A stretch of 64,000 nt of DNA from Chrysomallon squamiferum (lineage: Eukaryota > Mollusca > Gastropoda > Neomphalida > Peltospiridae): assembly GCA_012295275.1 (NCBI GenBank), contig CM022677.1, positions 2,669,698 to 2,733,697 on the forward strand, in the 5' to 3' direction. The notes below the pieces were generated by a model. That model ran no database searches and was not told where the DNA came from. It saw only the letters and a list, made by a program, of their open reading frames with translations. Every line of letters starts with the position of its first letter. Position 1 is the first letter of the stretch. This document shows positions 44,562 through 63,266 of the stretch, piece after piece. The translations under genes and the position numbers were made by a program.

Positions 44562-47500
44562 TCAAGCGGTGTCGTAGCTGTCGCTGTCAGGTTGGTTAAG
44601 ATGGTTATACACTTCTGATGTTGTTGTTGATGTTGGAGGTTTCCTGTCCATGGTGTCGTAGTCTTCAGAATCAACGAGGTGGCTGTAGACGTCAGATGAA
44701 GCTGCAGTTGTTTTTTCTTTGTTTGTGCTGTCGTAGTCGCTGTCATAGTCAAAACCAAGTCGGTTGTAGAGATCAGACGTAGCTGTTTTCTTTTTCTTAT
44801 CACAGGTATCGTAGTCGCCGTTGTCGTCCCCAGCAATGTGGTTGTAGATGTCTGATGTATGAGTTGTTGTATCTGTTGTGTCTGTGCTGTCGTAGTCCGT
44901 GCTTGAGAGGTGTTTGTCCACTTCAGATGTTGTAGTAGTTGCCGTGTTGATATCCGCTCTGTAGTAATCTCCATCGTTCTTTTCAGCAGTAGATCTGTTA
45001 ATGGGAACTGCGTTAACATCTTCGATGTCGTAGTAGTTATCATTTCTGTTTTCCATGTTGACAGTAACTCCGTTTGAGACGTTGTAGTAAACACTGTGGT
45101 TTCCTTGATTTTCTGATTCAAACTCATAATCTGCTGACGTCGGTGTCGTTGTTACCTCATAACTCGGATTTGCGTGACCGGGTTGTAAATCTTCAGCAGA
45201 TCTGATTTCATTGCTTCTTTTATTAAATGTAATTCTTGATTCTGGTAACTTCTGAATTTTAAAACAAAATCGACGTGTTCTGAAAAATGAAGACATTATT
45301 TGAATTTAAACTGTGAAATACTAAGTTAGTTTTATTATACGAGTTTCTGTCGTGACGACTCTGATAATTGAAAGGAAAAACTATTTTACATTTCAAATTA
45401 AACTGACGTTAACTAAAAAGAGTAACAGTGAAATATGTAGATTCTGTTTTCTTTTACTTTCTTTCATTCCTTTGTATCTGACTTTATTAATTTCATTCAT
45501 ATCTTCCTCTTTCTTTTATTCTTTCGTGTCTTTCTATCTTTCATTCTTATCTTTCATTTTCCTTCTCCATGTTTTTATTTTATCTTGACTTTTCTTACAA
45601 ACATGATAAAGAAAACCATTTTTTCTTTCTTTTTCATTCATTCATTCTCTTCCTTTCTGTTTTTTTCTTTCATATCCCAACCTATTTTTCTCCTATTTTT
45701 CTGGTTCATGAATTTCATAATTGTATTCAGTGACTGATTTTAACAAATTCTCACCGTTTAGTCCAAACTACGACGACAACAATGACGACCAACACCACTA
45801 CAGCTGCAGCGACACCACCACCAACAGATGCTGAAAATAGTCATATAATAACATTGGATTTAATGTAAGAACAATTATCTATGTAAATGTTTTTATTTAC
45901 TTTTTTGTTATTATCTAAATATTCTTTTAAATTTTAACACAAATATAACCGATTATTTTTCCCTCTTTCACATTAAATTATATAAAACACATGACTAATA
46001 ATATTAAAATAAAATGAATTTGCTAAGCTAGTAAAATAAAGTTAGTAAATTAAAAACAAATAAAATAATTCTTGCCAATTAAATGAACCATCTAGCACAG
46101 ACACACAAGTTATAAAAAGAATGAAAATAATTTAGTAAAACCAAAATAGTAAAATTAAAACTAACCTGATTTGTTTGATAGATGTTGTGTCTCAGCGGAT
46201 TGTTTTGTTGGAATTATCTCCCCTGATGTTGTTGGTTCAGAAGTAGAAAAGGACGGATTGGAGAAAAGTATGGAAGTTGACAATTTTGGCGTAGTTGCTG
46301 CTGTTGTTTTTTGCGTCTGTTTCGCAGGCGTTGTCAGTGATATGGACGTTGTTACTGGTGTAGTTGCATTATCTGTAAATTTATAAAATATTATTTCTAG
46401 AAGACGTTAGATTTTTTCTTCAATATAAAAATGTTTTAAGTTATCATTTAACTTTATTATTATTATTGTTACTGTTGTTTTTTATTATTATTATTATTAT
46501 TATTATTATTATTAGTAGTAGTAGTAGTAGTAGTAGTAGTAGTAGTAGTAGTATAAATTTCAGACACTGATTCTGAATATGAAATGGAAATATCTGTTAG
46601 TTTATGCAATTCACATCACATACCTACACAAACACCTACACAGATTCACAAATACTCTCTCTCTCTCTCTCTCTCTCTCTCTCTCTCTCTCTCTCTCTCT
46701 CTCTCTCTCTCTCTCTCTCTCTCTCTCTCTCTCTCTCTCTCTCTCTCTCTCTCTCTCTCTCTCTCTCTCTCTCTCTCTCTCTCTCTCTCTCTCTGTGTAT
46801 GTCGATTCACAGAATTATGAACTATAACAGTCATGACAAAAGTTTTAAGTATGTACTTGGTATTAAATTTTACCCTTAACATAATATGTATATTATACGT
46901 ATTCAAAAGCCTTTTGATGTTTTATTTGTTACTATATACTCACACTTCTGACAAATAGTCTGAAGTTTTGTCTGTGGAGGGTAATAATTATAATCATCAC
47001 TATCAACGGAAGAAACCAAACTTTTAAGAAACTTCGTATTGTCAGAAATCTGTTTCGAGTACGACACTTCTATACCTAAAAAACAAACAAAAAAAAAGAT
47101 TAAAAAAAAAATGAATAGAATAAAACAAAATATATATATATATATATATATATATATATATATATATATATATAGAGAGAGAGAGAGAGAGAGAGAGAGA
47201 GAGAGAGAGAGAGAGAGAGAGAGAGAGAGTGGTACCTTGACTTACGAGTTTAATTCGTTCCATGACTGAACTCGTAACTCAATTTGCCCGTATATCAAAT
47301 CAATTTTCCCAAATGTAATTAACTGAAATACCATTAATCCGTTCCAGCCCCCCAAAACCACCCCAATGTTTTGTAGCGTGTTTTCAAATAAGATAAATGT
47401 ATGTATAAATGACAAATATTGTTTAAGAAAATAATAATTATAAAAGAGAATGTAAAGTAATAAATTGGTTTTGTAAAGTGTACAGTGTTAGGGTTTCTCC

Positions 47501-63266: not shown

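Follow-up and report, generated by a model that had tools for sequence, protein, structure and literature searches.

A candidate receptor family of peltospirid snails that combines WSC and C-type lectin-like domains with a multi-tyrosine tail

The window, that is the whole stretch of 64 000 nucleotides analysed, contains two minus-strand genes of ten exons apiece where the first-pass annotation had placed them, and this gene pair is real. We consider it rather probable that the pair belongs to a family of single-pass receptors, so far encountered only in peltospirid snails, in which a first C-type lectin-like domain (CTLD1) encloses a WSC domain, modules are exchanged between members and the tail signals through multiple tyrosines. 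The ectodomain would begin with a CTLD opened at its long-loop region by WSC (exon 2, exons 3–4 and exon 5, the outer borders being phase 1). Next would come a second, degenerate CTLD (CTLD2), a Ser/Thr-rich stalk and a membrane segment; the predicted tail has an NPxY motif and four YxxL/I tyrosines, one every 26–27 residues.

The gene pair in the window

Copy B (57084–63266, minus strand) splices from ten exons into an open frame of 678 residues. Every junction is GT/AG and the phases match (phase 0 for intron 3/4, phase 2 for 9/10, phase 1 for every other), which bears out the ten-exon, 678-residue model proposed earlier. The features are listed below; the signal peptide and the membrane-spanning segment are judged from sequence only.

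63200–63266, minus: copy B exon 1, carrying the start codon and a putative signal peptide
62356–62580, minus: copy B exon 2, N-terminal half of CTLD1, phase 1-1
61080–61216, minus: copy B exon 3, first part of WSC
60565–60694, minus: copy B exon 4, second part of WSC
60228–60362, minus: copy B exon 5, C-terminal half of CTLD1
59837–60019, minus: copy B exon 6, N-terminal half of CTLD2, type b
59478–59606, minus: copy B exon 7, C-terminal half of CTLD2, type b, AVCQK at its end
58791–59000, minus: copy B exon 8, Ser/Thr-rich stalk
58247–58322, minus: copy B exon 9, hydrophobic, predicted membrane-spanning segment
57084–57828, minus: copy B exon 10, multi-tyrosine tail with NPSY, four YxxL repeats and the stop codon
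52878–52944, minus: copy A exon 1
51547–51771, minus: copy A exon 2
49756–49892, minus: copy A exon 3 (WSC)
49178–49307, minus: copy A exon 4 (WSC)
48834–48967, minus: copy A exon 5, 1 nt short relative to B and out of frame
48138–48368, minus: copy A exon 6, CTLD2 type a
46944–47075, minus: copy A exon 7, CTLD2 type a, TICQK at its end
46166–46372, minus: copy A exon 8, stalk
45755–45830, minus: copy A exon 9, hydrophobic segment
44562–45279, minus: copy A exon 10, tail
36588–38389, minus: relic, a 27-codon piece of exon 2 (36588–36668) and patches, to about 38389, matching sequence upstream in copy A
46554–48727, strand not assigned: block of copy A (exons 6–7 and flanking intron) with no blastn alignment to B
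59176–60128, strand not assigned: corresponding block of copy B

Copy A (44562–52944, minus strand) has the same exon set. Its exon 5 measures 134 nt against 135 nt in B, and the frame is lost from there, so that the earlier description of two full gene copies holds for B, which is fully open, but not for A as assembled. The frameshift may mark a pseudogene or an assembly error. The assembly is probably nanopore-based and corrected with short reads, as far as the relevant part of PMC7142155 describes it, and an error is conceivable because such correction is expected to be unreliable in multi-copy genes. A similar one-base difference is seen in the paralogue L038, the exon 4 of which is one base longer than that of L037, within a run of T. 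Exon 5 is phase-symmetric, and the frame would survive its (hypothetical) skipping. The relic noted earlier exists, as a piece of exon 2 with flanking homology, but it lies outside the span 44562–63266 to which it had been assigned.

At the protein level A and B are 79–93% identical in most exons, against 34% in exon 6 and 25% in exon 7; exon 5, frame-shifted in A, is 93% identical in DNA. Splice borders were also compared between the two window copies and ten paralogous loci fetched from the genome: AG and GT are conserved in the expected phase around exon 2 in 12 of 12 loci, around exon 3 in 11 of 11 and around exon 4 in 10 of 11, each count being over the loci in which that exon was found.

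Several other features accompany the pair. At lower coordinates (31785–33029, plus strand) there are open frames matching the prolyl 4-hydroxylase alpha subunit (P4Ha_N, TPR_P4H, 2OG-FeII_Oxy_3). A 247-bp segment of intron 2 (50077–50323 in A, 61472–61718 in B) is 98% identical between the copies, above the surrounding introns; its surroundings look by eye like a transposon remnant, and Pfam gave no match on the two frames adjoining it. Intron 2 of copy A also holds tandem 40-bp repeats (50907–51106).

Two lectin-like domains and a WSC domain

A single CTLD is most likely encoded in two halves by exons 2 and 5, with WSC (exons 3–4, 267 nt, phase 1-1) inserted between them via a phase-1 intron. 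The Pfam cut-offs are 22.6 bits for Lectin_C and 27.8 bits for WSC. Lectin_C scores 30.8 bits in the whole copy B protein and 29.9 bits (profile positions 3–103 of 107) in copy B exons 2 and 5 joined without WSC. The gain from joining is modest: exon 2 of copy B alone, at 23.6 bits, is already above the cut-off, and followed by a shuffled exon 5 it scores 24.3 and 25.1 bits (n = 2 shuffles). In L038, where exon 5 is divergent, joining lifts the score from 21.4 to 29.8 bits (positions 3–105), a value attained by none of ten shuffles (21.2–27.5 bits). Some of these shuffles likewise reach far along the profile, and the evidence for joining is therefore the bits and not the span. The Gigantopelta aegis protein described below (P0001) rises from 18.1 to 29.9 bits (positions 4–105), a comparison made without a shuffle control. 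A CTLD split by WSC is, on these joined scores, more likely than the ‘half lectin domain’ and separate ‘short Cys module’ of the first-pass annotation.

In a comparison with solved structures in the PDB, CLEC9A aligned to query residues 20–115, a stretch that spans the exon 2/5 junction, with CGYVK.NS and NCD in common. CTLDs have four conserved cysteines; CTLD1 of copy B has three of them and lacks the last, which is present in exon 5 of L038 (SVCA). CTLD2 (exons 6 and 7) is also divided by a phase-1 intron, placed after the corresponding W.W..G motif, with nothing inserted. Because CTLD2 has the same kind of intron, uninterrupted, WSC is best explained as a shuffled module in the CTLD1 intron, which it probably entered by exon shuffling. 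An arrangement like beads on a string (a truncated CTLD, WSC, an unrelated cysteine module and CTLD2, with no nesting) would fit the observations that, with WSC in place, the best Lectin_C stretch covers profile positions 3–66 only and that exon 5 of copy B alone has no Pfam match. It appears improbable to us given that three divergent versions of exon 5 lift the joined score, that the CLEC9A alignment crosses the junction and that the phase-1 splits of CTLD1 and CTLD2 match. AlphaFold2, run on P0001 together with six window exons, gave no informative model (mean pLDDT 32.1), so the nested reading stands on sequence and exon evidence.

The combination of WSC and CTLD proposed for the ectodomain is supported by Pfam matches to both. 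A profile search of the spliced 678-residue protein, suggested earlier as a check, recovers Lectin_C, but WSC scores 22.3 bits there, under its cut-off, and passes just barely when exons 3–4 are cut out (28.1 bits in B, 28.6 in A). The second WSC type found among the paralogues (type II, below) scores 25.8 bits, under the cut-off. A WSC domain has eight cysteines; there are six in type I and seven in type II.

CTLD2, the second lectin-like domain of the earlier description, is degenerate, as judged by Pfam: L035 passes the Lectin_C cut-off of 22.6 bits at 22.9, but B stays below it at 19.7, and no Lectin_C match was found in CTLD2 of A, T33 or L038. A profile of six CTLD2 sequences run against solved structures found KLRB1 (E 2.6e-4) and also CLEC2D, KLRG1 and CD94; NK-type CTLD receptors (KLRB1, KLRG1, CD94, CLEC2D, CD69) are thus among its best solved-structure relatives. 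Those receptors are type II membrane proteins with one CTLD each, whereas the snail receptor would be type I with two CTLDs and WSC. Calcium-dependent sugar binding by CTLDs is associated with EPN/QPD-type and WND motifs. None of the 67 aligned exon rows (12 loci, some partial) contains either, nor does P0001; classical calcium-dependent sugar binding is not supported in the absence of these canonical motifs, and the sugar-binding role once read from the folds is doubtful, the more so as the nearest relatives of CTLD2 are of the NK-receptor type.

The missing motifs and the NK-type relatives would both be consistent with a receptor or adhesion family that serves a non-microbial purpose, such as fertilisation, self-recognition or biomineralisation. 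This we think rather unlikely; a comparable multi-copy mosaic family in the sea urchin has been linked to immunity (in the part of PMC1988830 that bears on it), a point that tells against it only indirectly.

Distribution and mosaic composition of the family

Searching the genome with the copy B ectodomain returned at least 162 matches (120 of 407 candidates scored). Among the matches listed, exon 2 is matched at least 48 times (41 on C11 and 7 on C13), with a WSC exon within 5 kb downstream in at least 34 cases and with WSC and then exon 5 in order in at least 19. These module counts come from 135 rows of exons 2–5 among the matches listed, CTLD2 rows excluded, and they miss weak types: L036 was counted as having no WSC, yet has one on reading. 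No further copy was found in 264 kb around the window, 6000 bases of which read N. A strictly local tandem family is ruled out by the lack of a third copy in those 264 kb and by the many copies elsewhere in the genome. The tandem duplication proposed earlier is supported by the A/B pair, and the family additionally extends over two chromosomes. Open frames of 170–315 aa at some loci are ruled out as intronless genes, since the three such loci fetched (L033, L037 and L038) have introns.

On C11, six WSC matches stand in tandem within 11 kb (12.70–12.72 Mb). Near L036, a locus that pairs exon 2 with a WSC exon of a distant type, C11 has a third cluster (0.04–0.21 Mb), made up of CTLD2-like exons that are more divergent (30–42% identity).

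The composition of the copies was compared over 11 loci: the two window copies and all fetched paralogues except the divergent L036. By their sequences these loci are mosaics, in which a similar exon 2 and a similar tail are combined with discrete types of WSC, exon 5 and CTLD2. Exon 2 is 89–99% identical in DNA between all pairs, and exon 10 is 86–96% identical in the 8 loci where it was found (81 nt compared in L037, 360–741 nt in the others). Exons 3–4 are of type I in 8 loci and of type II in T33 (L039 plus L033; exon 3 only), L037 and L038, with 50–63% identity between types (50–54% for exon 3 alone). Exon 5 occurs as types alpha and beta (60–64% between them), exon 6 as types b, a, c and d (50–66% between types). 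L035 and L038, for example, are 98% identical in exon 2 and 54% identical in exon 3. The strong match around exon 2 across types takes the form of a 312-bp block (91–94%) that runs from 76 bp before the exon to 8 bp after it, seen in three pairs (L035 with L038, L037 and T33); L035 and L038 have an additional weak 100-bp patch (77%) further upstream. T33 has no recognisable exon 4, and the sequence between its exons 3 and 5 seems to hold a junction of type II and type I sequence.

Within the window, A and B align across exons 1–5 and 8–10 and fail to align across exons 6–7. The synonymous distance dS is 0.92 in exons 6–7 and 0.12 elsewhere, so the mismatch is not due to rapid protein change alone, and positive selection alone was rejected as an explanation of the CTLD2 difference. 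The breaks are intronic and fall at or close to trinucleotide repeats (microsatellites), which gives no more than a hint because such repeats are dense in the region. B is colinear with L031 on C11 along nearly its whole length (86–96%). CTLD2 type a is also found at several C11 loci, so that A is not a unique chimaera. Judged from these alignments, later homogenisation of the flanks and a swap of CTLD2 account for the A/B pattern about equally well. We give nearly an even chance to the former, in which the CTLD2 difference is an old divergence and gene conversion has since homogenised the flanks: types a and b each occur at several C11 loci, and the first 40 codons of exon 2 have a pS of 0.008 across the 11 loci, as expected after homogenisation. 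The position of the breaks at or near microsatellites also fits a swap, but argues weakly, given their density here.

Selection was gauged from seven same-type loci. WSC is under purifying selection (pN 0.038 vs pS 0.092), and CTLD2 gives pN 0.071 vs pS 0.096. For CTLD1, pN (0.063) exceeds pS (0.046), a difference that is not significant (bootstrap fraction 0.86), and significant positive selection on this domain is accordingly not supported. Codons 41–60 of exon 2 form a variable patch across the 11 loci (pN 0.153, pS 0.088). The family had been called rapidly evolving; the mosaic structure fits this description, but the excess of pN in CTLD1 is not significant and WSC is constrained.

Disabling changes as assembled are the frameshift in exon 5 of A, a stop in exon 6 of L029 and the extra base (+1) in exon 4 of L038, the last hidden in our exon alignments, where the L038 row ends before it. 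Along with the loss of a recognisable exon 4 in T33 and the 5' relic, they would be expected of a largely decaying family spread by segmental duplication, with many copies, perhaps including A, being pseudogenes and the mosaics by-products. That the family is decaying in this way seems unlikely to us: copy B is fully open, the pN and pS of the WSC exons indicate that at least part of it is constrained, and single-base length changes may be nanopore errors if the assembly is the one described, in the part concerned, in PMC7142155. The reading we prefer is that members diversified through germline recombination or gene conversion, which would have left exon 2 and the tail in common and varied the types of the WSC, exon-5 and CTLD2 modules that lie between them.

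Tail, relatives and possible role

The Ser/Thr-rich stalk and the hydrophobic segment proposed earlier are both supported by the sequence. The tail beyond them contains 15 tyrosines in B and 18 in A, and each has seven YxxPhi motifs against 2.5 expected, a number attained in 0.6% (B) and 0.5% (A) of 5000 shuffles. Both tails have one NPSY and four [DEN][VIL]Yxx[LI] motifs 26–27 residues apart; the YxxL/I spacings are 26, 27 and 26 in B and 63, 26, 27 and 26 in A. This array looks like a product of tandem repeats. In an ITAM, the two YxxL/I elements are separated by 6–12 residues, a spacing that neither tail has, and the ITIM pattern [SIVL]xYxx[LVI] is matched strictly once per copy (SVYYNV). 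The tail had been likened to immune tyrosine-based tails. That it carries many tyrosines is supported, but the spacing of 26–27 is not ITAM-like and there is only the one strict ITIM. The engulfment receptors CED-1, Draper and MEGF10 likewise have NPxY and YxxL in a type I receptor tail, a likeness of motifs alone; their ectodomain is of EGF type.

A profile search of about 5.77 billion proteins found one relative at E values up to 10, the uncharacterised protein LOC121385519 (P0001) of Gigantopelta aegis; as the search requires shared five-residue words and limits candidate lengths, more distant relatives may have been missed. Residues 1–340 of B as query gave 1211 candidates with none at E 0.01, and a further search (1213 candidates) returned P0001 and nothing new. 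Gigantopelta aegis and Chrysomallon both belong to the family Peltospiridae, and the genome analysed is probably that of Chrysomallon squamiferum, the scaly-foot snail. P0001 is 45% identical over 65% of the query and has the CTLD N-half, a WSC-like block and the CTLD C-half in the same order. It differs in that the gene model, of 275 aa, shows no membrane segment and ends shortly after a CTLD2-like IYICQK; Pfam did not call WSC in it. That the DNA is molluscan, as first surmised, is supported by 27 matches in the genome to the molluscan haemocyanin beta-sandwich family, which has none in 14 control genomes.

Polycystin-1 and the sea urchin REJ proteins are huge multi-pass proteins with PKD repeats, in which WSC and CTLD are separate and not nested. 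They resemble the snail receptor in having WSC and CTLD in one cell-surface protein; copy B has no Pfam PKD match and one hydrophobic segment. The combination of WSC with CTLDs is not new, since in bivalves WSC is among the domains combined with CTLDs, and an immune role has been suggested (PMC10140915); the relevant passages of that paper say nothing of a nested domain, of mosaic exchange or of tyrosine tails. No report of nesting was found among the papers listed on WSC or domain insertion with CTLDs, drawn mostly from outside subscription journals, and none on this receptor family. Among snails, the hyperdiverse single-pass C-type lectin/Ig/FN3 genes of Biomphalaria sudanica are likewise clustered, diverse lectin-domain genes (PMC10875847, in part). 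They combine the lectin domain with Ig and FN3, neither of which Pfam found in copy B, and WSC does not occur in the main text of PMC10875847. The lack of an immunoglobulin match in B also sets it apart from FREPs and CREPs, which join an immunoglobulin to a lectin or fibrinogen domain. The sea urchin 185/333 genes, too, form a multi-copy mosaic family, for which repeats have been proposed to promote gene conversion (PMC1988830, in the passages concerned). The likeness is one of evolutionary pattern and not of sequence homology: 185/333 is a different protein with its mosaic elements within the second exon, whereas the snail modules are whole exons.

We infer a surface receptor whose ligands, proteins or glycans carried by microbes, symbionts or other cells, would cluster it; its tail tyrosines would then be phosphorylated and would recruit SH2/PTB adaptors, with uptake or a changed activation state of the cell as the outcome. 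A role in immunity or in dealing with symbionts may be envisaged. The scaly-foot snail houses bacteria (PMC7142155 and PMC7895826, in the parts concerned), which makes the handling of symbionts or microbes plausible if the genome is that snail's. A lectin expansion special to C. squamiferum is not favoured, since G. aegis has more C-type lectins according to the relevant part of PMC7895826. The main text of that paper does not contain WSC, nor do those of PMC7142155 and PMC7736800 contain the word lectin.

More speculatively, and we would call this doubtful, a single branch of vent snails evolved a composite recognition head in which a CTLD presents WSC at its ligand face, and this gave rise to a germline-combinatorial family with a constant exon 2 and multi-tyrosine tail, exchangeable WSC, CTLD1 half and CTLD2, and possibly the ability to tell symbionts from other microbes. 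The nesting, if true, would be a clear case of exon shuffling that placed one extracellular domain inside another, with the uninterrupted sister domain of the same gene as its control. The snail, probably an animal reliant on bacteria living inside its cells, also provides a large candidate receptor family whose binding modules seem to have been shuffled in the germline.
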